From a bacterium (GTDB lineage Bacteria; UBP14; UBA6098; B30-G16): a stretch of 36,406 bases of DNA. Under the pieces are notes generated by a model that was not told the origin of the DNA, searched no databases, and was given only the letters and a program-made list of their open reading frames with translations. Within the stretch, counting starts at the first letter, position 1. Each line of letters begins with the position of its first letter. The stretch covers positions 1 to 36,406 of the forward strand of contig JAGHAI010000213.1 of the NCBI GenBank assembly GCA_021161555.1, in the 5' to 3' direction. Below are positions 47 through 29,786 of the stretch, piece by piece. The position numbers were made by a program, and so were the translations under genes.

Positions 47-3025
47 ATGTATAAGTATTCGGTGATTTTAATTTCGTTATTGTCAATGGTGCTTTTTGTA
101 TGGGCGCTGAATGTTGAAGATGAGTATGGTGCAAGAGCGCTTGGAATGGGAAGGACATTTGTTGCTGTAGCCGATGACGGATATTCCGCGCTGTGGAATC
201 CCGCTGGTATGGATTTCTTCAGGGAAAGAACGCTTACCGCTATGTTCTCCCGTCTATACTGGGGTGTAGATAACGACGCCATCGGGCAGGGATTTTTGTC
301 GTACATTCACCACTGGGATGGAATCGGTTCTGCAGGGATTACTGTGACTCAGTTGTTCAGCAATATATGGTGGGAAACGAGAGCGGTGTTCTCCTACGGG
401 AAACGCATTGGCGGAAAATTTTCCGTTGGTATGAATATGAAACTCCTGCGAAATGAGGTGGTAAAGTCAAATATAACTTATACCGAGCAGCCTGGCGATG
501 TGGAGCACGGCATAAGCAATCCCGCAGAGGACCCCTTCTTCGCCGCTAACGGATGGAACAAAATAGGTTTTACCGGCGATGTCGGCGCTATGTATAAGCC
601 AAATCGAAAACTGACGATTGGTTTGATGGCTGCCAATTTAACGCAGCCCGATATGTCATTCGCCGGCATCGGTGCCGAAGGAAAGGAACCGCTTTCAATT
701 CGTGTCGGTGCTTCATATTGGATAAAGGATAACATACTTCCTGTATTCGACATTCGATATCTAAACGATGAGGTGAACGGAAAGAATATTATTCGTCCTC
801 ATATTGGCGTGGAATATTGGTTTGCGGGGAAGAATATAGCGGTGAGAAGCGGTTTCAATCCCGAAGAATATGCCTTTGGTTTTACATATCGTTCCCGCAA
901 ATCTCTCGATTTACAGGTTGACTATGCTTTCATTTATCCGCTGTCCGATGTGAGGCAGACCGGAGCGACGAGTCATAAATTGTCTGCTACATTGAGATTT
1001 CTGCCTCCGCCCAAGCCCTTGTTTGACCTTGCGCTGCGCACGACGAATATGTCGGCATATCCCCAGAATGCCATTATAGGCGAGCCGATTAACATAAAAG
1101 CGGTCGTTGAAAATCTCGGCGAAAGGGATGTGGACGAGTATAAGGTGTCGTTATATTACGAGGACCCCGAACAGGGTTGGGTTCTTGCCGCTCCTGTAAA
1201 AACCGTGAAGGAAAAATTAGAACCTGGTGCGAAAAAGGAAATTGAATGGAGCTGGACAGCGGGGCAAAAGGGACATTATCAGTTCTTTGCCGCAGTCGAT
1301 GACGATGGAATTGCAATCCCCAATTTGCACGGTTCAATAAGTGAAATAGACGAAGATAACAACAAGGGATTTGTGGAATTTACCGTATTTCCGCTGCCTG
1401 AAGGCACAGTTTCCCCTGTGGAGAACAGCCTGGAAATTTCGCAGGTTACTTTAATCAGAGAAGAAGAGCCAATTGTTCCCGTTATATTTTTCGACCCTAT
1501 GGAACACAGGGTCGATGATAGATTTCAGCATATGCTATCCGTGATTTCCGAAAGATTGCGAAAAAATCCCGATATTCACATAAATCTCTATGGCTATTAC
1601 AATCCTGAATCCGATGGGGATATATACGAATTTGGAGAAAAGCTTGCCTTGAACAGAGCGAAGGCAGTTCGTTCAGTTCTGTTCCACAGCTTCCCCGATA
1701 TAAGAGACCAGATACACATAGTTGCACCTCCCGCTTATGACCCTGCTCACTACCGTTCGGGCAAGTCAGAAGACCATCTACCCGAAGACAGGGCTCGTGC
1801 AGAAGCTGAAAACCGTCGTGTGGAGATGAGAACTTATGTGGAAGGTTTTCAGGATTGGGAACCGACGATGTTCTTCAATAAAAATTCCGCAGAGATAGAT
1901 GTGAACGCTCTGCAGACATTGAAGAGCGAAGCTCAGAGAATTCGTCAGGTTATGGAGAGGAACCCCGAGGTGATATTCTTGATTGAAGGGTTGGTATCCG
2001 CTGATGAAAAAAATCCTGTCAAGCTTGCTTTTGATAGAGCCTACAACATCAAAAAGGCGCTGGGCGACATTCTGGGTGAGGATTTTGTCAAACAGTTTTC
2101 AAGGCGAATATTCATAAGGGGCAACACAAACAGATATGTTGATAGAGGCAAGGCGCGGATTGGCATTTCGGGCGAAAGCTTGATATTCAGACCGATGGAA
2201 GGGAAGTGGGCAGCGAAGGACTTTGAACTTCAGCAGGACCAGACGAATTTCGTGAAGATAACATCTCATGTGGAAGCAGGCGTTGACAGCTACACCGTGA
2301 AAATTGTCGATGAGAATGGGAATACTTTTAGAGTTCTCGCGCAGGGTTCTGGAAATATCCCGTCAGGTGTGCCGTGGGATTGGCGCGATGAAAACGGAAA
2401 TCTTATCAATCCTCGAGATAAATATTATGTTCAGATGGACATTAAAGACCGCCTCGGGCAGAGGTTTACAACCCGTTCTGAGCCGATAAGTGTGAATGTG
2501 ACCAAGCGCCAGCAGGAAATCGAAACTTTAATCATCGTTCAGTTCGTGTTCGACGAACCGACATCCGAATCGAAATTTCTTGAATCCCGCGTGGAATATA
2601 TTGCGAGAAAATTCATTGAAAAGGCACTCGAACCCAAGAAGAAACTCATCGCCGAGGTTGGTGGACATACCGATGTGATTGGAATGGACTTCCGCAACAG
2701 GGAATTGTCGATTTCCCGCGCTAAAAAGGAATATGAGAATTTGCGTCAATATCTAATATATTTACTCGGTCTCGGAAGTGAGGCAGAACTGGATAAGTGG
2801 CTCACTCAGCATAAGACAACGCTTACTTACAAAGGATTTGCCGATTCAAAACCGTACATCATAACGAAATGGCAGGAAGGCGAACTTGTCCGAAAGAAAA
2901 TAGGTGAGAATACTCTGCCTGAGGGTCGAACCATAAACAGAAGAGTTGTTATAGAGTTCTATATGGAAAAAGAAGGACAGAAAAAGGCAACCAGGGAAGA
3001 GGTACCACCACAATCAAGAAGATAA
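47..3025 (+). CDS. PorV-like barrel / CARDB / multi-OmpA fusion protein, outer membrane
   Basis: The ATG is preceded by a strong Shine-Dalgarno (aaggaggg), and residues 1-21 are a signal peptide. Residues about 25-320 look like the PorV/UPF0164 outer-membrane barrel family, with the opening motif ALGMG...AVADD...LWNPAG and alternating beta strands. Residues about 325-450 look like a CARDB (Ig-like) domain. OmpA-like modules follow at about 477-597 and 604-709, each ending in an NRRVEM- or ARIGI-type strand. Residues about 745-815 resemble a FlgD-type Ig domain (YTVKIVDENGN). The last module, about 831-976, is the most canonical OmpA/MotB domain (GGHTDVIG, LSISRAK, NRRVVIEF). A role in anchoring an outer-membrane barrel to peptidoglycan is inferred from these modules. 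At 992 aa it is about three times the length of a simple PorV protein. The FG-GAP gene follows after 36 nt on the same strand. Confidence 0.8.
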   Translation: MYKYSVILISLLSMVLFVWALNVEDEYGARALGMGRTFVAVADDGYSALWNPAGMDFFRERTLTAMFSRLYWGVDNDAIGQGFLSYIHHWDGIGSAGITVTQLFSNIWWETRAVFSYGKRIGGKFSVGMNMKLLRNEVVKSNITYTEQPGDVEHGISNPAEDPFFAANGWNKIGFTGDVGAMYKPNRKLTIGLMAANLTQPDMSFAGIGAEGKEPLSIRVGASYWIKDNILPVFDIRYLNDEVNGKNIIRPHIGVEYWFAGKNIAVRSGFNPEEYAFGFTYRSRKSLDLQVDYAFIYPLSDVRQTGATSHKLSATLRFLPPPKPLFDLALRTTNMSAYPQNAIIGEPINIKAVVENLGERDVDEYKVSLYYEDPEQGWVLAAPVKTVKEKLEPGAKKEIEWSWTAGQKGHYQFFAAVDDDGIAIPNLHGSISEIDEDNNKGFVEFTVFPLPEGTVSPVENSLEISQVTLIREEEPIVPVIFFDPMEHRVDDRFQHMLSVISERLRKNPDIHINLYGYYNPESDGDIYEFGEKLALNRAKAVRSVLFHSFPDIRDQIHIVAPPAYDPAHYRSGKSEDHLPEDRARAEAENRRVEMRTYVEGFQDWEPTMFFNKNSAEIDVNALQTLKSEAQRIRQVMERNPEVIFLIEGLVSADEKNPVKLAFDRAYNIKKALGDILGEDFVKQFSRRIFIRGNTNRYVDRGKARIGISGESLIFRPMEGKWAAKDFELQQDQTNFVKITSHVEAGVDSYTVKIVDENGNTFRVLAQGSGNIPSGVPWDWRDENGNLINPRDKYYVQMDIKDRLGQRFTTRSEPISVNVTKRQQEIETLIIVQFVFDEPTSESKFLESRVEYIARKFIEKALEPKKKLIAEVGGHTDVIGMDFRNRELSISRAKKEYENLRQYLIYLLGLGSEAELDKWLTQHKTTLTYKGFADSKPYIITKWQEGELVRKKIGENTLPEGRTINRRVVIEFYMEKEGQKKATREEVPPQSRR

Positions 3026-14985: not shown

Positions 14986-16245
14986 TTAGAAACGATAGGA
15001 AAGTCCAATCATAATGTCCGTTATTTTGTACTCTTCAGAAATTTTTCCGCAGGAACTGTCGCTGCTTTTCTGCCAGTTGTCCATAACTACACTTCCCTCA
15101 AACAACCACTTTTTATCGATGAGAAATGCAATTCCGCCTGTGTAGAACTGTCTTTCCTTCAAAACTGTCTGATTTTTATATGGCAGCGGGTCATATCTAT
15201 ATCCACCTCTGATTTTTATGGGAAGGAAGTCAAAGGGCAGTGTGAATTCCATTCCAGTGCTTAAAGTCAGCACGGCGCGATAATTTTCGGGTATCCACAC
15301 ATTGTCTTCGATTAAATAGGATGAATGGTATCTCATCTGTCTCCAGTCCGTGTACGAGACATCTGCGGCGATATTTATCGCTGGCGACTTGAAGGCAAGA
15401 CCGCCGCCAAATTGAAACGGCGTCGTCAGGGAAATGTCATATTCTTCCACATAGGGCGATTCACTCGAATATGTGCTGTCAGTATAATCGACGATTGTTT
15501 CCTGAATGTATTCTCTGTCTGTGGATATGTAAGACGGGAATTTTATTGTAGTTCCGATTGCAAAGTATTTTGAAGGAGTTATCAGCAGACCTATTTTCGC
15601 CGTATATCCTGAATGAGCGTTTGTAATTTTGTCCGATATAATGGAATCTGTTATCATTGAGTCCTCAAGATTGTATTTTGTCATATCCCAGTTGTAGTTT
15701 TCTGCACCCGATAGGAAGTCCAGCGATGCGCCTACGGATACCTTTTTCGATGTCTGAACCGCAGCGGCAATGTGCAGAGCGCCCATTCCACCGTCGCTCG
15801 CTTCTATGGCATCAAATTCGGTTCCATCGGAACATTTTCCCGAAAAATTGGCGCTGTGGTCGAATGTCTGGAATCGTGAGAATCCCACGGCAAAGGCAGC
15901 ACCTCCTCGCTTTGCGAGAAGTGGAAGAACATATCCGATGTGGCTTAATTTGACCGCTGAAAAAGATTTGGAAGAAGGAGAACTGCCGCCCACACTTGTT
16001 TCGCTCTGTCCGCTGAAAACAGAAATTCCGCCAGTCACTTCGTGTTTATATATGTATGCCAGACCGGCGGGATTGTAATATGATGCTGAAAAATCCTGTG
16101 CCAGAGCGATTTGCGCTCCACCCATAGCAGAACCGCGAAGACCGACGGGAATGTATCCGCCCGACAGGGGATTGTCTTCAATCTCGTCTGCCGTCAATGA
16201 AGACAGCGCAATTAAAATGGATGTTATTGTTATCAGGTATCGCAT
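14986..16245 (-). CDS. OMPP1/FadL-like outer-membrane beta-barrel protein
   Basis: 419 aa, ATG after SD gggagg, signal peptide ending LSSLTA. The N-terminus carries the FadL/PorV-superfamily signature GLRGSAMGGAQIALAQDFSASYYNPAGLA, and the body is alternating beta strands to a C-terminal aromatic residue (IGLSYRF), as expected for a BAM-assembled barrel. Internal motifs such as ALHIAAAVQTSKKVSVGASLDF and FAIGTTIKFPS fit the OMPP1 family. FadL-type channels move hydrophobic compounds across the outer membrane, whereas PorV-type relatives act in type IX secretion; sequence alone does not decide between them. A lipoprotein gene lies 37 nt upstream on the same strand, probably in the same operon. 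Confidence 0.75.
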   Translation of the reverse strand: MRYLITITSILIALSSLTADEIEDNPLSGGYIPVGLRGSAMGGAQIALAQDFSASYYNPAGLAYIYKHEVTGGISVFSGQSETSVGGSSPSSKSFSAVKLSHIGYVLPLLAKRGGAAFAVGFSRFQTFDHSANFSGKCSDGTEFDAIEASDGGMGALHIAAAVQTSKKVSVGASLDFLSGAENYNWDMTKYNLEDSMITDSIISDKITNAHSGYTAKIGLLITPSKYFAIGTTIKFPSYISTDREYIQETIVDYTDSTYSSESPYVEEYDISLTTPFQFGGGLAFKSPAINIAADVSYTDWRQMRYHSSYLIEDNVWIPENYRAVLTLSTGMEFTLPFDFLPIKIRGGYRYDPLPYKNQTVLKERQFYTGGIAFLIDKKWLFEGSVVMDNWQKSSDSSCGKISEEYKITDIMIGLSYRF

Positions 16246-20055: not shown

Positions 20056-21882
20056 ATGAATAAGTTTCTATTCGGCGCGATTATCGTTCTCTCATTGTAT
20101 TCCATCATTTTTGGGCAAAATCCGCCACGGGAGCTGGTGGCGCAGGGATTTTCCACCCCACGCGTGGAACTGAACTGGATGACGCCTGTCATTCCACTCG
20201 AACTCGACGAAATTGCCTACGAAGACGGCAGTGGCGGAAGCGCGGACGAAGCGGAACAGGGAGATATGATTTCGGTCAGATTCACCCCCACCGAAAGATG
20301 TTCGCTCATATCCGCAAAATTCTACGGGTATGCGATGTATCCTGGCATAAATATTCAGGTGGTCGTCTATCCTGATAATGGATATGGCAAGCCTGATATA
20401 TTTTCGCCGCTGGCGTCGCCTGTAACCTGCGAGATAACAACAGGCTGGCAGGAAGTCGATTTATCCACAGCTGGGCTGGTTTTCGACCCGTATGAGGATT
20501 TCCACATCGGGATAAAGAAAATCGCAAATGTGGATACTTTCCCCCACTACATTTTCATAGACACGGACGACAGCACCGAAAGAAGCTGGTGGTATGATTA
20601 CAGTATGTTCGGATTTCACGGAATCGGTGGTGACCTTGAAATCCGCGCTCTCGTGTATAATACATCGGGGCTTATGAGGTGGCTTCCGGATGAAAAACAG
20701 GTTTTCGCTGCGGATGGTGAGGGTGGAGTTTTCAATCGCCACACCGTGCGTTTTCTCACGGAAGATATAGACCACTATGTAATTTATCGAAATACCGTTC
20801 CCGACCTTTCGTCTATGTCGTATCTCGCGATGACTTCGGATACTTTTTACACCGACAACGATGTTTCCGAAGATGCGACATATTACTACGCTGTCAAGGC
20901 GGTATATTCTGACGGCGGCGGAATTTCCGATTTCTCTAACATTGCTTCTGCCACGACGCACAGTGGAGCGGCGACGACATATCTCGATACCATTATCCTC
21001 GACGATGGAACATTCGACGCTTCCGCCACCTGGACGGTCGAACACGGTTTTGGAACCGTTCTAAATCCATCGAGCGTTGGGCTTTTGCGAACCTTGATGT
21101 TTTACCTGACTAATACCGGAGAATTTCGTCCCGAAGTGTGGTCTGTTGACAGCTCTGGATTCCCCACATCGTTGATTTCAGGTTCACCTTCGTTTTTATC
21201 TGCCACATCCGTCGGCTGGCGAAGTGTTGGCTGGTCATCCTGGACGACGACTGTTATCGACGAAGATTTTCTCGTAGCTTGCATCTGTGGATATTCACCT
21301 GTGTCTCTCGGGATGGATGTTCCCGGATATAGTTCATCTTTCGACTTCAATGGGAGCAGCTGGAATGCGATGTCCGATACGACATATATGATTAGAGCAA
21401 TTGTGGAATACAACACAGACTGCGCATATTACAATATACATACAGGCTGGAATCTCGTCAGCCTTCCCGTGATGCTTGAGGACAGCTCCATTTCGAGTGT
21501 TTTCCCGATGGCTGCTGGAGGATTGGCTTATTATTATATCACAGGCGTTGGATATGATACGACGAGTGTAATTGTTCCTGGGAAAGCATACTGGATACTT
21601 TCATACATTGATACATCGTTTTCTATCTGCGGCGGCACACCGTTATACACCCTCGATGTGGAAGTGGAACCCGGATGGAATATGGTCGGCGGAACCGCCG
21701 TGCCGGAAGGATATTCCAAATATGATATTTTCGACTATCCCGATGGAACTCTCACATCGTATCCGTATTTATTCGGCTTTGATGTAGACAGCAGAAATTA
21801 TATCGCCGTTGACAGGCTTTATCCTGGCAAGGGATACTTTTTGCTTGCCTTTAATTCCGGAATTATAAGATTTGAGCCATAA
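20056..21882 (+). CDS. Secreted multidomain protein with fibronectin III-like domain and C-terminal repeats
   Basis: 608 aa, ATG after SD cggaggt, signal peptide ending SIIFGQ. Residues about 45-200 form a beta-sandwich-like domain (SVRFTPTERCSLISAKFYG, WQEVDLSTAG, FHIGIKK) of a type often found in exported proteins of FCB lineages. A fibronectin III-like segment follows (HYVIYRN...DNDVSEDATYYYAVKAVYSDGG), then a second beta domain. The C-terminus has two related repeats: GWNLVSLPV...PGKAYWIL and GWNMVGGTA...PGKGYFLL. No sorting tail of the PNPFNS type is visible; the repeats themselves may be a surface-attachment module. It probably belongs to the dapA-dapB transcript by position. Function unknown. 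Confidence 0.72.
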   Translation: MNKFLFGAIIVLSLYSIIFGQNPPRELVAQGFSTPRVELNWMTPVIPLELDEIAYEDGSGGSADEAEQGDMISVRFTPTERCSLISAKFYGYAMYPGINIQVVVYPDNGYGKPDIFSPLASPVTCEITTGWQEVDLSTAGLVFDPYEDFHIGIKKIANVDTFPHYIFIDTDDSTERSWWYDYSMFGFHGIGGDLEIRALVYNTSGLMRWLPDEKQVFAADGEGGVFNRHTVRFLTEDIDHYVIYRNTVPDLSSMSYLAMTSDTFYTDNDVSEDATYYYAVKAVYSDGGGISDFSNIASATTHSGAATTYLDTIILDDGTFDASATWTVEHGFGTVLNPSSVGLLRTLMFYLTNTGEFRPEVWSVDSSGFPTSLISGSPSFLSATSVGWRSVGWSSWTTTVIDEDFLVACICGYSPVSLGMDVPGYSSSFDFNGSSWNAMSDTTYMIRAIVEYNTDCAYYNIHTGWNLVSLPVMLEDSSISSVFPMAAGGLAYYYITGVGYDTTSVIVPGKAYWILSYIDTSFSICGGTPLYTLDVEVEPGWNMVGGTAVPEGYSKYDIFDYPDGTLTSYPYLFGFDVDSRNYIAVDRLYPGKGYFLLAFNSGIIRFEP

Positions 21883-21895
21883 AAAAGGAGATTTT

Positions 21896-22858
21896 ATGCG
21901 AAGGTTTGTTTTTACCGTTCTGCTGTTCGCACTTGTTTCTGCGTCGTCTGCGGGAACAATTAGCGGAACTTTTATCTTCGAGTGTGCCGAGCCTGACTCT
22001 TATACGATAGCATACGCATCAGTTTTCACTGTTTCCTCTATCAGCTCGGGGGACTTTATGTCATCGCCATACGATATCGTTGTGCCGCCCTGGGACTACG
22101 AAATTACTTATGACTTCGACGACGATTCCGAATATTATGCTGTGGGCAGCGTTATAATCGGCGATTTTCCTGATATAACCGATGGAAATCCTATGGGAAT
22201 GTTCCCTGGCAGTCCGTTTCACACCGTAGGCGGTGCAGCAGAAGATGTCGATATTGTTCTCGATGACACTGTGGACATCACAGTTGGGGTTGATGTTGTT
22301 GGTGGTGCGTTTGAAGATATCTATGTCAACATTTACGATGCCGTGCCATATTTTCTTGCCGGCGGCGACCCCACTCTCGAAATAACTCTGCCGATGGAAG
22401 ACACGATACAGACTATATCCGATGTTCCCGCAGGTCCTAAATACATTCAATTTTTCAAAGACCTGAATGATAATGGTGTCTGGGATGAAGAGGAACACAG
22501 CGTTTACATCGAAACTCCCGAGAGCAATCTCGTATTTGCAGTCGGCGGATTTTACGATACTCTTCGGGCAACGCTGGACTTGAGTAAAATTGTCGAAAAA
22601 TCTGTGCCAGAAAATATGTTGGCTCTCGATGTATCTCCATCGCCATTCAATAGTTCCGCGAGAATAGAAATTTCGGGTATATCTGATGATGCTCTGTTAG
22701 AGATAAGCGATGTTTCTGGCAGAATCGTATATCGCAATGATGTTGCCGGCAATCTTGTGTTCGAGTGGAAGCCGAAAAATCTTGCGGGCGGGCTTTATTT
22801 CGTCAATCTGTCCAGCGGTGAAGACAGGATTATAAAGAGAATTGTGTATATGCCATAG
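21896..22858 (+). CDS. Exported protein with Por/T9SS-type C-terminal sorting tail
   Basis: The track start (TTG 21872) is rejected: ATG 21896 lies after aaaggag and opens the signal peptide MRRFVFTVLLFALVSASSAG; 320 aa. The middle is beta-rich and acidic with carboxypeptidase-regulatory/SdrD-like features (IQFFKDLNDNGVWDEEEHSVY). The last 75 residues fit a Por secretion tail: ALDVSPSPFNSSARIEIS, LLEISDVSGRIVYRND, FEWKPKNLAGGLYFVNL and KRIVYMP. In Bacteroidota such tails direct export by the type IX system. The following ORF carries a fragment of the same tail. Confidence 0.78.
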   Translation: MRRFVFTVLLFALVSASSAGTISGTFIFECAEPDSYTIAYASVFTVSSISSGDFMSSPYDIVVPPWDYEITYDFDDDSEYYAVGSVIIGDFPDITDGNPMGMFPGSPFHTVGGAAEDVDIVLDDTVDITVGVDVVGGAFEDIYVNIYDAVPYFLAGGDPTLEITLPMEDTIQTISDVPAGPKYIQFFKDLNDNGVWDEEEHSVYIETPESNLVFAVGGFYDTLRATLDLSKIVEKSVPENMLALDVSPSPFNSSARIEISGISDDALLEISDVSGRIVYRNDVAGNLVFEWKPKNLAGGLYFVNLSSGEDRIIKRIVYMP

Positions 22859-23127: not shown

Positions 23128-25092
23128 ATGAAACAGCATCTATTTATTGCGATTATTTTTTGCGTGGTGTTTTCCGCAGGTGCGATGGAACTTGTGGGAA
23201 GTTATTCGGGTTTCACCAATACGCAGAAATGCGTTCCAAATGGTGATTATCTATATCTGCTCGATAGGTTTACACTATATGTCTTCGATATAAGCATGCC
23301 TTCGTCTCCTGCAAAAGTAGATTCCATCGTATTTAGTGGTTATGTTCTCGACCTTACAATTAGCGGAGATTATGCCTTTCTCGGTGCCGGAAATTCTGTG
23401 GTTGCGCTCGATGTTTCCGACCCCGCTCATCCTGTTGAGCTCGGCTCGACATCGTTCGGAGCGTCCGATTATGTATATGGAATAGCGTATAAGGATGGAT
23501 ATGTTTATGCTTCGATAATGAATTCCTTCAGGATTTTATCATACACGCCACCTGCGACATTTTCGGAAGTATATTCGTCGTCGTATATGACGAAGACTGT
23601 CGATGTTGAAGGAGATTATGCGGCAATTGGTGTTTTTGGTGGAGGTGGGGGGGGAATTTTTATATTTGATATTTCCAATCCCGAACTGCCTGTCGGTGTG
23701 GGCGGAATGGCAACGCCTGGCTTCGCCGTGGATGTGGACATAGACGGGGACAGAATTTACATCGCCGATGGTGCAGAAGTCGGCGTTGGAACGGGGCATA
23801 TTCTTCTAATGTTGACATCTGATTTGCACTCTGAAGCGGGGCGGTTCTCATCTGACGATGGCGACTGCCAGCACGGATGCGCCTACGGAACTCAATATAT
23901 CGTCGCAAACGGAAGCGATGGCTTTCTGCTGCTTGACTGGAGCGAACCTGTGCCAACTTCGCCGACAATTGCCGATGAATATTCTCTTCCCGAAACAGAT
24001 TACGCTCAGGAAGTAAATGTTCAGTATCCATATATTTATGGAATTACGAGAAACGAACTTCTTATTCTATACAGCGATGAACTTGTCGATACGGGAACTG
24101 CTGTTGACACTGTCGATACGATTCCGCCGACTGTGGAATTGGTTGAACCGTTCGATGGTGCTGTTTCATCCTGTATTGACCAGTGCGTTTCCTTTGTCAT
24201 AACCGATGATGTGAGTGGCGTAGATTGGAGTTCTGTGCAAATTGGCATAGGCGCTGATGTATATTCAATCGGGGATTTATATCACAGCGGCGATACTGTG
24301 TCCTTTTACCCTATGATAGAATGGATGGACGGCGATACTGTTGAATTTTATTGTGTATATGCTGCCGATAATGACGGGAACATCGCCGTTGATTTGCCAT
24401 CGGGGACTTTTTTCACCGATTTTTCTCCGCCTATAATAGCGGATTTTGTTCCTGCTGAATGGGGAACTGTCTCCGTCGATACGCCCACAATATCGGCGAG
24501 GATATACGATGAAGTTTCTTCCGTGAACGATAATTCAATCAGTCTGATTGTGAATGGGGTTCACATAGAGCCTGACGATTTTGATTGGGATGGTTCACAT
24601 ATCACATATCGCCCGACTGAACCTATTGTCGATACTGTGGTTGCCGTTTGCATTTCCGCTTCCGATACTGTGGATTATTGCGCATCTAACTTTGCCGATA
24701 CCTGCTGGACATTTTTCATACGAACGGATGAAGTTAGCGAAAAAAATATCCCCCAAACATTGTCGCTTATAACCTATCCAAATCCGTTCAATTCATCTAT
24801 CGCCATTTCCGTAGAGACGCAAAATCTTGCGTCTCCACCCGAAATTGCGATATACGATGTGATGGGGAATGTTGTTTATAAATCATCCCCTCTATCCTCT
24901 AACTCCTTTCTCCCCGAGGAGAAAGAAGAATCTTTCCCTCTCCCTGGGGAGAGGGAAACACAAAGGGTGAGGGGACGATTCACCTGGGCGCCTGAAGAAT
25001 CTGTTCCGTCGGGAATTTATCTCATTCGCGCCACAATCCCGCAACAGAAGAAAACAGTCGTCTGCACGAAGAGAATTGTGTATTTGAAATAA
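23128..25092 (+). CDS. Exported LVIVD-repeat protein with Ig-like domains and sorting tail
   Basis: 654 aa, ATG after SD ggaggg, signal peptide ending FSAGA. Residues about 20-320 contain LVIVD-type repeats (LYVFDISMPSSPAKV, VVALDVSDPAHPVEL, IFIFDISNPELPVGV), predicted to form a beta-propeller. Two Ig-like/bacterial surface domains follow (PPTVELVEPFDGA..., PPIIADFVPAEWG...). The C-terminus is a Por/T9SS-type sorting tail (LITYPNPFNSSIAISV, EIAIYDVMGNVVYKSS, SGIYLIRATI, KRIVYLK). Between VVYKSS and FTWAPEE about 30 extra residues rich in P, E and S interrupt the tail; they are encoded by a palindromic repeat (see the repeat entry). The reading frame is preserved. Probably co-directional with the three exported-protein ORFs upstream. 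Confidence 0.8.
   Translation: MKQHLFIAIIFCVVFSAGAMELVGSYSGFTNTQKCVPNGDYLYLLDRFTLYVFDISMPSSPAKVDSIVFSGYVLDLTISGDYAFLGAGNSVVALDVSDPAHPVELGSTSFGASDYVYGIAYKDGYVYASIMNSFRILSYTPPATFSEVYSSSYMTKTVDVEGDYAAIGVFGGGGGGIFIFDISNPELPVGVGGMATPGFAVDVDIDGDRIYIADGAEVGVGTGHILLMLTSDLHSEAGRFSSDDGDCQHGCAYGTQYIVANGSDGFLLLDWSEPVPTSPTIADEYSLPETDYAQEVNVQYPYIYGITRNELLILYSDELVDTGTAVDTVDTIPPTVELVEPFDGAVSSCIDQCVSFVITDDVSGVDWSSVQIGIGADVYSIGDLYHSGDTVSFYPMIEWMDGDTVEFYCVYAADNDGNIAVDLPSGTFFTDFSPPIIADFVPAEWGTVSVDTPTISARIYDEVSSVNDNSISLIVNGVHIEPDDFDWDGSHITYRPTEPIVDTVVAVCISASDTVDYCASNFADTCWTFFIRTDEVSEKNIPQTLSLITYPNPFNSSIAISVETQNLASPPEIAIYDVMGNVVYKSSPLSSNSFLPEEKEESFPLPGERETQRVRGRFTWAPEESVPSGIYLIRATIPQQKKTVVCTKRIVYLK
24885..24976. 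repeat. Nested palindromic repeat inserted in frame in a coding sequence
   Basis: Two perfect hairpins lie side by side: CTTTCTCC-ccga-GGAGAAAG and TTTCCCTCTCC-ctgg-GGAGAGGGAAA. They are enclosed by an imperfect outer pair (cccctctatcct / agggtgagggg). The sequence is unlike the surrounding coding DNA. It adds about 30 residues to the sorting tail of the LVIVD-repeat gene. This matches the general form of small palindromic REP/MITE-like or Rickettsia RPE-like elements. Confidence 0.75.
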
Positions 25093-26752: not shown

Positions 26753-29737
26753 TCAGAATAAAAGTCTCACCCTCATTTCGGCGGTGTGTCTGGTATCTGT
26801 GGATGCCTTTTTCTCGCCCCGATAGATTATTGAAAGTTCGGTTTTTGCGCCAGCGCGATACGATATACTGCTGTTCCAGACGAAATTTTCTCCCACATTC
26901 CATCCCGATGACAGTTCATACGGAAGGTATGACGATTGCGACGATAATAGAACTCTCTGTGCATCTGCGCGAACGGTTATTTTCTTCACTGACAGCGTCA
27001 TATTCGTTGAAAGAGAAAATCTTTTTGCATTTGTCTCAGGAGATGTTCCTTCATCGACTATGTCTGCATATTCCGTTTGAGCAGTCGTGCGCAGATATTT
27101 GAAAAATCGGCGGGTGAGCGCAAGCGAGATGGAAATTTCCCTCGCGTTCACCCAGTTTTCCAGCGTCGGTCTGAACGCCTGCGTTTTCTCATATTTCGAT
27201 TCTATGTCCGATGTTATGGAGAGCGGCAGAGGTCCCACAATTCCAATCGAATAGATTTGTCGAGCGGAAAATTCCGCACCCGAAGAGTAGTTTCTATATG
27301 CGCTCTTTCTGAAGGACGATGTGAACTGCACGCCCAGAGGTGATCTTTTTAAAAAATTTGTCCGCAGAATTGCATAAAAATTACCCGATGTGAGGGAATC
27401 ATCCGAAAACATATTCTGTGGGGAAATGTAGTATGAGCGAAAGTCATCCTTTTGATTTTCTGAATGGAAAGATGCATCTGCCGAAACGGATGCGCCCAGT
27501 GGAACGAAATCCATCGGCGCAGAAAAGGAAAATGAACCATCGCTTCGTATAACCGGCTGAAATTCGCCCGATGGCTGATATTCAAGGATGTAATCGCCGT
27601 TCTCGTCGGGGATGTATTCTTCCTGTTCCTCATCCCAGATGTAATTCCCCTCTCCTTCGCCGACATAGTTATAAACCTTTTTCAAAATTTCGCTCTGGCT
27701 TCGCGACACCTGATAGGTTGCGGAAACCGACGAGCCCCATAGCGAAAATGAACTCCGCATAGAAATCAGGTCGCTCTTCTGGTCTTCGCCCGCAGATGTG
27801 TCCGCCGCATCGAAATATCTTCGTGTGAAATTTATTGACATTGGCGTGCTGCCCACATAAGCGCCGATTTCAAATGTCTGCGAAAAGTCCATCCATTCAT
27901 CCATTCTGCGCAGGAGATATTTTGAAAATCCGCCGTTAAGCCCGAATTTCAAATCCCAGCGTGAGTATTCAATCTTCTGACCGATTTCTCCGTTCATCGT
28001 ATCGGCGTCCATTCCCAGAAAGCGCTCCGCTTCGATGTCGGTCTGCAGTAAACTCAATTTCTCCTTTTGCGTTCGTTTTGCGGAAATCGTTCCCACTGCC
28101 CGCTCGCCAGATGTCGATTTCGCATTGGAAAGGGACAACTGCGCAAACCAGTTGCTCGTGTTTATGTGAGCAGAAATGTTCGCTCGGTTTGACTTTTCCG
28201 AGCCGATTTTCCTCTGCCCGAGCCAGATTATTATGCCGCCATTATCCCAGCCTGTCGATGCGCCGCCATCCAGAATCAAATCGTCGGCGCCGCTGTCCGA
28301 TGTGGAAATGTTCCAGTCTCTGTCGAAGTCTGCGGGGTCAATTCTGCCCGGCGTTGCGAATGTTGACGAGAGAAATCTTCCCCCGGCAAAAATTTTGATT
28401 GGCTTTGCCACCGCAAGCGTCCCCGATGCCAGAAATCCATCGCCGAAATTATCTCCATCGTCTATGCTGGAAAACAGATTTTCGTCGCTGCTGGAAAATG
28501 AATACTCCGCTCCCAGCGAATATTTTTCCCCACTGAAGGACATTTTCACATTCGATGTCTGAACCGACTGCGGCGCGGCGATGGAATCGGGAACGGAATC
28601 GCCATAATTTTGTAAAATTTGCATCGTCGAATCGGAGATTGCGGTAATCGGATTGTTTTTATCATCCTGCTGCGACGCAATGGCAATTGAAAATTCCGTC
28701 TCTTTATTTGGTCTTATGGATGCCGTTCCGCCGAATAGCGCCCGCGGATAATTTTCGGAAATATATTGAAAGTCAACTACAATTCTGTCATCGCTGCCAA
28801 TTGGATGGTTGTATGTGAAGGTTATTTGAGCGAGGTTATAATCCATCACATAATCGTTGTCCTCTCCCCTTTTCAAAGGCTGTCCATTGAGCCACACTTT
28901 TTCCGTGCCGGCAACCACAACGATATCGCGTTCATTGTTCTCGCCCCACAGAGGATAAGGTCCCTGATTCCCCTCCTGCCCCGAAAACTCCACTGAATTG
29001 AACTGTCCCCGCATAAGTGAACCAAAAGCCTGCGCTTCGAACTTTTCATAATTCGCCGTCGCTTCGATGCCCTGAATTCTTCTGTCAAGCTGGAGGAACG
29101 AACCGCCATCGTATTTTAAATCTATGTCTCCAAAGGAAGCAGTGAAATGCGGGGATTTCGCCTGAATTAACACCTTATCGAGTTCGGAAATTTCCACAGA
29201 GCGGCCTTCGGGCTGGATTGGAGAGCCTTCGTCAGAGAGGAGCGCCGTGATGTGAATGTCCCCTGCCAGTTCGCCTTCCGCCTGAAAGTGCAGTGCGCCT
29301 GTGGAAGACACATCGCCGGTATTTGATATTCTAATTCCACGAAGTAAACTGCCGCTTGTTCTGAATGACGCAGTGGGCGGAGCATTCTGAACCTGCGATG
29401 AGGATGGACGAAGTGAACCTGTTCCCCATAGAAGTCTGTGTCGGCTGCGCGGCGGGAAAAATCGAGAGATGGAAGTGTATTCAATGCGCACGCTGTCACA
29501 GAAAATTTTCGTTTTTACATAAACAGTTCCGGTTCTCGAGACTGAAAAATAGCTATCTGGTATCGGAGAATTTTTGCAGAATATCCTTACGGAAGAAGGC
29601 AAAATATTTTTGCCAATGTAAATTTTTTCGCCCACAGGATAGACAGCAGATGTCGGTTGACACCATATTATTGTGGCGGTGAATATAAGGAAAATTTTTA
29701 AAAAATTTTTCACACAAATAAAATTTGTCCAAATCAT
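26753..29737 (-). CDS. Large SprA-like outer-membrane beta-barrel protein
   Basis: 994 aa if ATG 29737 is the start; GTG 29713 (codon 9) would give a cleaner signal peptide (KNFLKIFLIFTATIIW...PTSA). Neither has an SD. Residues about 120-330 match, from memory, the plug-like region of SprA-related FCB proteins: GSLLRGIRISNTGDVSSTGAL, LSDEGSPIQPEGRSVEISELDKV, FTASFGDIDLKYDGG, VWLNGQPLKRGEDNDYVMDY and ITFTYNHPIGSDDRIVVDFQY. The rest alternates beta strands to a C-terminal aromatic (MRVRLLF), as in outer-membrane barrels. SprA is the large T9SS translocon barrel of over 2,000 aa; this protein is under half that size, so it is a relative rather than SprA itself. It begins directly after a bidirectional terminator and is probably its own transcript. 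Confidence 0.65.
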   Translation of the reverse strand: MIWTNFICVKNFLKIFLIFTATIIWCQPTSAVYPVGEKIYIGKNILPSSVRIFCKNSPIPDSYFSVSRTGTVYVKTKIFCDSVRIEYTSISRFFPPRSRHRLLWGTGSLRPSSSQVQNAPPTASFRTSGSLLRGIRISNTGDVSSTGALHFQAEGELAGDIHITALLSDEGSPIQPEGRSVEISELDKVLIQAKSPHFTASFGDIDLKYDGGSFLQLDRRIQGIEATANYEKFEAQAFGSLMRGQFNSVEFSGQEGNQGPYPLWGENNERDIVVVAGTEKVWLNGQPLKRGEDNDYVMDYNLAQITFTYNHPIGSDDRIVVDFQYISENYPRALFGGTASIRPNKETEFSIAIASQQDDKNNPITAISDSTMQILQNYGDSVPDSIAAPQSVQTSNVKMSFSGEKYSLGAEYSFSSSDENLFSSIDDGDNFGDGFLASGTLAVAKPIKIFAGGRFLSSTFATPGRIDPADFDRDWNISTSDSGADDLILDGGASTGWDNGGIIIWLGQRKIGSEKSNRANISAHINTSNWFAQLSLSNAKSTSGERAVGTISAKRTQKEKLSLLQTDIEAERFLGMDADTMNGEIGQKIEYSRWDLKFGLNGGFSKYLLRRMDEWMDFSQTFEIGAYVGSTPMSINFTRRYFDAADTSAGEDQKSDLISMRSSFSLWGSSVSATYQVSRSQSEILKKVYNYVGEGEGNYIWDEEQEEYIPDENGDYILEYQPSGEFQPVIRSDGSFSFSAPMDFVPLGASVSADASFHSENQKDDFRSYYISPQNMFSDDSLTSGNFYAILRTNFLKRSPLGVQFTSSFRKSAYRNYSSGAEFSARQIYSIGIVGPLPLSITSDIESKYEKTQAFRPTLENWVNAREISISLALTRRFFKYLRTTAQTEYADIVDEGTSPETNAKRFSLSTNMTLSVKKITVRADAQRVLLSSQSSYLPYELSSGWNVGENFVWNSSISYRAGAKTELSIIYRGEKKASTDTRHTAEMRVRLLF

Positions 29738-29755: not shown

Positions 29756-29786
29756 ATAAAAAAACCCCCTAAAATGGGGGCTTTTT
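29756..29786 (-). terminator. Bidirectional-looking intrinsic terminator
   Basis: AAAAAG-CCCCC-attttA-GGGGG-TTTTTTT on the minus strand; the plus strand also has a T-tract (CTTTTT). It ends the transcript of the Ig-like exported protein just before the SprA-like gene. Confidence 0.85.

Follow-up and report, generated by a model that had tools for sequence, protein, structure and literature searches.

The C0 Gene and Its Surroundings

The window, a stretch of 36,406 nucleotides that was analyzed at its full length, carries on its minus strand an open reading frame (ORF) of 994 aa, here called C0 (26753–29737). Open runs in shuffled sequence did not exceed 184 codons (50 shuffles), and whole-genome searches recovered C0 homologues in many genomes, with identities of 18–58%. 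The ORF is real and conserved. Its family, previously unnamed, was analyzed with 16 and later 55 members and comprises proteins of approximately 980–1280 aa (978–1276 aa as measured). C0 of the window is, as a preliminary description of this DNA had proposed, a compact SprA-related outer-membrane barrel candidate of about 1,000 aa. When the window protein was searched singly, no match was found in Pfam, NCBIfam or the PDB; a PDB profile search yielded only chance matches to Vipp1. A search of plasmid sequences for C0 gave no match.

By direct reading, the N-terminus of C0 resembles a signal peptide (29648–29737, minus strand), and a GTG at residue 9 may be the true start. A hydrophobic stretch at this end is conserved in the family. 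Upstream of the ATG, between C0 and a gene of 308 aa, lies an intrinsic-terminator-like hairpin, AAAAAGCCCCCATTTTAGGGGGTTTTTTT (29758–29786, minus strand), suggesting that C0 is a transcription unit of its own in the window. The 308-aa gene was rejected as a partner of C0, because its adjacency was not conserved and the hairpin separates the two.

The window also contains the sorting-tail proteins and the PorV-like barrel that had been reported alongside C0. Type A sorting tails are present in two proteins encoded on the plus strand: one at 21872–22858 (tail at residues 255–325; TIGR04183 24.1 bits, cut-off 23; PF18962 26.7, cut-off 27) and an LVIVD-repeat protein at 23128–25092 (tail at residues 550–592; PF18962 27.4; TIGR04183 27.3). 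Inside the latter ORF, a perfect 12-bp inverted repeat (TTTCCCTCTCCC/GGGAGAGGGAAA, 2-nt gap) at 24933–24958 is in frame within the C-terminal sorting tail, which it appears to lengthen; its appearance is that of a dispersed palindromic repeat that has entered coding sequence. The PorV-like protein (47–3025, plus strand, 992 aa) is an unusual fusion of a PorV/PorQ-family-like barrel (NF033709 67.1 bits, below the cut-off of 90) to CARDB and two OmpA-type domains, the matches to OmpA and CARDB being over cut-off. Further, a FadL-type barrel is encoded at 14986–16245 (PF03349 over cut-off); among NCBIfam entries it came closest to BamG, a component of the BAM complex in Bacteroidota, with 77 bits against a cut-off of 250.

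Domain Organization and Barrel Features of C0

C0 begins, after the signal-peptide-like segment, with an Ig-like domain (residues 36–95; 29453–29632, minus strand, as for all features of C0), which matched the Ig-like domain of SprA at 92–94% and the second Ig-like domain of C0 at 97%. A strongly conserved N-terminal strand region follows (residues 110–270; 28928–29410), with the hallmarks LSD..PIQPEG..ELDK, GD and EGNQGPY, and is joined directly to Ig-like domain 2 (residues 271–330; 28748–28927; AGTEKVWLNG..RGEDNDYVMDY..ITF), which matched SprA at 98% in hhalign. The remainder of the protein (residues 335–994; 26756–28735) is a long run of amphipathic strands, a candidate large barrel for which the count of strands is rough. 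This run includes a conserved loop motif, GxGxY..D..x.EY.PD..GDY (residues 690–725; 27563–27670), in which G697 and G714 were invariant among 16 members, and it closes with a strand ending in Phe, like a BAM-type beta-signal (26756–26782); the terminal residue was Phe in 46 of 55 members.

In residues 110–270 and 335–994, hydrophobicity alternated strongly from residue to residue (lag-1 -0.25/-0.28, lag-2 0.19/0.34). The alternation exceeded that of the SprA and Omp85 comparison sets, and a propeller set showed none. This is the pattern that a large outer-membrane barrel would be expected to have, and on it we regard C0 as a candidate barrel. A full-length AlphaFold2 model of C0, built from two sequences, had a pLDDT of 28 and was unusable for the fold. 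Modeled singly, Ig-like domain 2 gave a small beta domain with a moderate fold (core pLDDT about 77–90). A fold search of the PDB with this model returned nothing significant; the better of the weak matches included phage portal-tail structures.

Relationship of C0 to SprA

We compared the profile of the C0 family (16 members, later 55) with that of 18 true SprA proteins, using reversed sequences as controls. With 16 members, residues 255–388 of C0, that is, Ig-like domain 2 and the strands directly after it, matched SprA at 97% (E 1.6e-10), and residues 110–270 matched the start of SprA_N, at the collinear position, at 74%. With 55 members the Ig-like match stayed at 97% and Ig-like domain 1 matched the same SprA domain at 94%, while the match of the strand region fell to 14% and all matches outside the Ig-like domain were below 60%. 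The reversed controls gave 3.5% or less. Thus, at the level of sequence profiles, the Ig-like domain ties C0 firmly to SprA; common ancestry of the two barrels is likely but less sure.

The preliminary description had recognized a SprA-type pattern in the N-terminal region from several motif strings, all of which are present in C0 of the window. Only part of this pattern is common to the two families. The DYxxxY pattern of the Ig-like domain was found in 49 of 55 C0 proteins and in 18/18 SprA proteins and is the sole distinctive motif that they have in common; a short GD motif was present in all C0 and SprA proteins compared. In contrast, PIQPEG, ELDKV and RGI..NTG characterize C0, each being present in none or one of the 18 SprA proteins. 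The proposed resemblance to SprA accordingly stands for the Ig-like domains and is weaker for the N-terminal strands. Further, C0 of the window matched neither TIGR04189 nor PF14349 and, with 994 aa, lies outside the SprA range of about 1900–2400 aa; some members of its family matched TIGR04189 weakly (best 1.3e-8).

The Ig-like domain of C0 and SprA (AGSE.V.LNG..G.GNDY) also stands alone, at the end of an ORF, in viral contigs of IMG/VR (L101–L108), and was the only part of C0 that recurred in the IMG/VR contigs searched. Some C0 family members showed weak matches to the phage distal tail families DUF2460 and TIGR02217.

It is conceivable, though doubtful in our judgment, that the likeness to SprA reflects domain sharing only. 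C0 would then be a large barrel of separate origin that has acquired a mobile Ig-like domain, as some phage proteins have. The solitary Ig-like domains of the viral contigs are consistent with such mobility, as are the facts that this same domain gives the strongest match to SprA and that the other regions fell below 60% with the larger family. The collinear order of the N-terminal strands and the Ig-like domain, set against reversed controls of at most 3.5%, argues against domain sharing alone. The question here is one of ancestry, and either answer is compatible with the mechanism proposed below.

Proteins of 1.8–2.2 thousand aa with weak similarity to SprA were also found in genomes that lack SprA over cut-off (L098 1831–8310, L099 251–5941 and L100 305–5782); these are possibly further members of a SprA superfamily.

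SprA and Sorting Tails in Genomes with C0

The genome from which the window derives (G000) has a separate SprA on another contig (C158). The gene is cut by the contig end, leaving at least 1929 aa, and matched the SprA profile with 629 bits (cut-off 200) and the solved SprA of the PDB with 3e-62. A PorV/PorQ-family gene (NF033709 140.7 bits, cut-off 90) is present on the same contig, and the genome contains at least 77 PF18962 sorting-tail matches. Since a full-length SprA is encoded elsewhere in the genome, C0 is not the SprA of this organism, and its reading as a reduced substitute translocon is not supported.

Among 61 genomes, C0 was present in 10 GTDB-like families, of which 9 had SprA over cut-off and all 10 had at least 19 tails. 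By comparison, 36 of the 38 families without C0 lacked SprA over cut-off, and 36 had fewer than 19 tails, leaving two with at least 19. The associations of C0 with SprA and with tails by family gave Fisher values of 3e-7 and 1e-8, respectively, and of 2e-5 and 8e-7 when the class of the window was counted once, all of them confounded by phylogeny. C0 was thus confined to tail-rich genomes, nearly all of which carry SprA too. The predicted co-occurrence of C0 with sorting tails was borne out, and a C0 genome devoid of tails, which had been named as evidence against the idea, was not found.

No match over cut-off to the GldL/PorL profile TIGR03513 was found in the 61 genomes, including those with SprA, in a search run without a Bacteroidota positive control. 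This suggests divergence of the type IX systems in this sample, in the motor if nowhere else; the SprA-positive genomes may have an energizer that is strongly diverged or of another kind.

The preliminary description had suggested that C0 could be a reduced translocon, of SprA type, in a divergent type IX-like system. The Ig-like domains common to C0 and SprA, the tails in every C0 genome and the undetected GldL all agree with this proposal. It conflicts with the presence of full-length SprA in G000 and in nine of the ten C0 lineages, and with genomes of another phylum in which C0 has been lost and SprA kept (see below). We therefore consider a reduced translocon very unlikely.

A Conserved Unit of Propeller, C0 and Omp85

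Outside the class of the window, C0 was counted in two other phyla. In that of G022 it was present as a single copy in 39 of 39 genomes, and in that of G024 as a single copy in 99 of 119 genomes; of the remaining 20, 10 gave no more than the Ig-like match, located in a large protein resembling SprA, and 10 showed nothing. We compared 40 neighborhoods from these two phyla together with those of the first search. In both phyla the gene order was C1, encoding an NHL beta-propeller, then C0, then C2, encoding a POTRA/Omp85 protein. C0 and C2 were on the same strand in 37 loci, with gaps mostly of -4 to +3 nt, and C1 preceded C0 in 40 loci, with gaps mostly of -11 to +19 nt; the intergenic gaps of the triad clustered at -4, -1 and 0. 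Judged from this order and spacing, C1-C0-C2 is a translationally coupled operon in the two phyla. The C1 proteins were about 280–390 aa long, many of them with a lipobox. The C2 proteins, of roughly 570 aa (ranges of about 520–600 and 500–650 aa), had at least one POTRA domain, usually two, and an Omp85 barrel whose loop 6 bears the RGY motif, in which R450 and G451 were invariant and Y452 nearly so. We found no description of the triad in the openly accessible literature searched.

In one phylum, that of G024, a tandem pair of DUF5683-like genes and an M6-like protease with a T9SS tail were usually located upstream of the triad (L166 11752–16669, with equivalents in L153–L171).

In the class of the window, the C2-type Omp85 is present but unlinked to C0, and the C1 propeller still adjoins C0 in families f2–f4. 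In the family of the window itself (f1) neither C1 nor C2 is adjacent to C0, and no clear orthologue of the C1 propeller was found.

Omp85 proteins insert barrels into the outer membrane or pass polypeptides, and BamB is a propeller that acts as a scaffold. One alternative is that C0 is a client, a surface-exposed barrel or exoprotein that its private C2 inserts or secretes in the manner of two-partner secretion, the propeller acting as chaperone. The adjacent, translationally coupled Omp85 is of TpsB-like size, and one C2 weakly matched ShlB. However, Pfam detected no TPS or haemagglutinin domain in 16 C0 members, C0 is itself amphipathic up to its terminal Phe, and near-universal presence as a single copy in two phyla would be unusual for an adhesin. 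We regard the client model as unlikely.

In one relative, a TamB gene (L032 3–2537; PF04357 2e-40) precedes C0 by 67 bp and has the same orientation. TamB was not retained as a regular partner, as this adjacency was seen in one genome and TamB elsewhere adjoins a different Omp85. By inspection, lpxA was identified downstream of C0 in f2. These two neighbors are what would favor a role of C0 in conducting surface material other than protein (a lipid, a glycan or a variant of LPS), in loose analogy to LptD or the TamA/TamB systems. We rate such a role as distinctly unlikely, given that TamB was adjacent only once and otherwise lay beside a different Omp85, and that C0 is tied to tail-rich genomes without exception.

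Persistence and Co-loss of the Omp85 Partner

A profile of the operon Omp85s found a counterpart in every C0 genome searched of the class of the window, near full length where the contigs allowed. In the genome of the window this C2 (544 aa, E 6e-78) is unlinked to C0, at 428–1903 of contig C24; the genome has further Omp85s, namely BamA on contig C108 and another of about 617 aa on contig C133. In a phylogenetic tree, these counterparts grouped with the operon Omp85s, apart from BamA and TamA, with 100/98 support. The one exception was the best match of G054, which fell on the BamA side.

A C2-type Omp85 was detected in 18 of 19 genomes with C0 and in 3 of 50 without it, a difference that phylogeny confounds. 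Two of these three are incomplete relatives from C0-bearing families, and the third is 76% complete. The abundance of Omp85 proteins counts against the pairing of C0 with C2. Within the G024 phylum, five genomes that are near-complete (G102, G113, G123, G134 and G138) have kept an SprA-like protein of approximately 2000 aa and show neither C0 nor C2. The strongest argument for a joint function of C0 and its Omp85, separate from SprA, is this shared loss with SprA kept. A module of C0 and a private Omp85, usually with a propeller, is well supported; its function is what we infer below.

A Proposed Role for the C0 Module

We propose, tentatively and with a probability of about 0.42, that C0 is a large outer-membrane barrel that belongs to the SprA superfamily, is not itself the type IX translocon, and works with C2 and mostly with C1 as a second conduit or assembly site beside SprA. 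C0 would be exported by Sec and become a large outer-membrane beta-barrel. C1, secreted or lipid-anchored, would serve in most lineages as a BamB-like periplasmic scaffold, and C2, helped by C1, would insert or gate the C0 barrel. The surface proteome, rich in tails, might then use C0 as another conduit or site of assembly in the outer membrane, parallel to SprA and not replacing it. In family f1 the genes of the module are dispersed.

The module resembles several known systems in part. The export pore SprA is built of 36 strands and has a lateral gate (PMC10994853). C0 has in common with SprA/Sov (TIGR04189, PF14349; 6H3I) the Ig-like domain around LNG..DY.IDY, an amphipathic large-barrel character, occurrence in the same genomes and, less surely, a collinear strand region upstream of the Ig-like domain. 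Unlike SprA, C0 is about half as long, lacks the SprA inserts, has motifs of its own, coexists with SprA and pairs with an Omp85. The BAM complex, which in Bacteroidota includes BamG and BamH (PMC12611786), likewise brings together an Omp85 (BamA), a beta-propeller (BamB) and an extra outer-membrane barrel, whereas C2 exists alongside BamA and TamA as an Omp85 of its own, of shorter length, and the third member of the C0 module is an SprA-like barrel and not a FadL-type BamG. A propeller is fused to Omp85 in the WD40-Omp85 subfamily (PMC4104836). This subfamily and the TAM systems (TamA/TamB, TamL) resemble the module in the association of a propeller with Omp85 and in their multiple Omp85 paralogues, but C1 and C2 are separate genes with a giant barrel gene between them. 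Two-partner secretion (TpsB/FhaC) also encodes a small Omp85 beside one large exported protein; C0, in contrast, has no TPS domain and resembles an integral barrel. In none of SprA, BAM, WD40-Omp85 and TAM is an SprA-like barrel combined with both a private Omp85 and a propeller encoded separately.

A bolder version, possible but doubtful in our view, is that the NHL propeller, the SprA-like giant barrel and the dedicated Omp85 form an undescribed, vertically conserved machine for outer-membrane protein export or assembly in several candidate phyla, a second SprA-superfamily translocon beside type IX that is powered or gated by its own Omp85.

SprA has been regarded as a giant barrel without counterpart, confined to the FCB superphylum (PMC12611786). 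As a half-size relative of SprA, present as a single copy in nearly all searched genomes of two phyla and tied to a private Omp85 and a propeller, C0 would place SprA in a wider superfamily of barrels and would give a route to how huge barrels are assembled. The loss of C0 together with its Omp85 makes this partnership directly testable.
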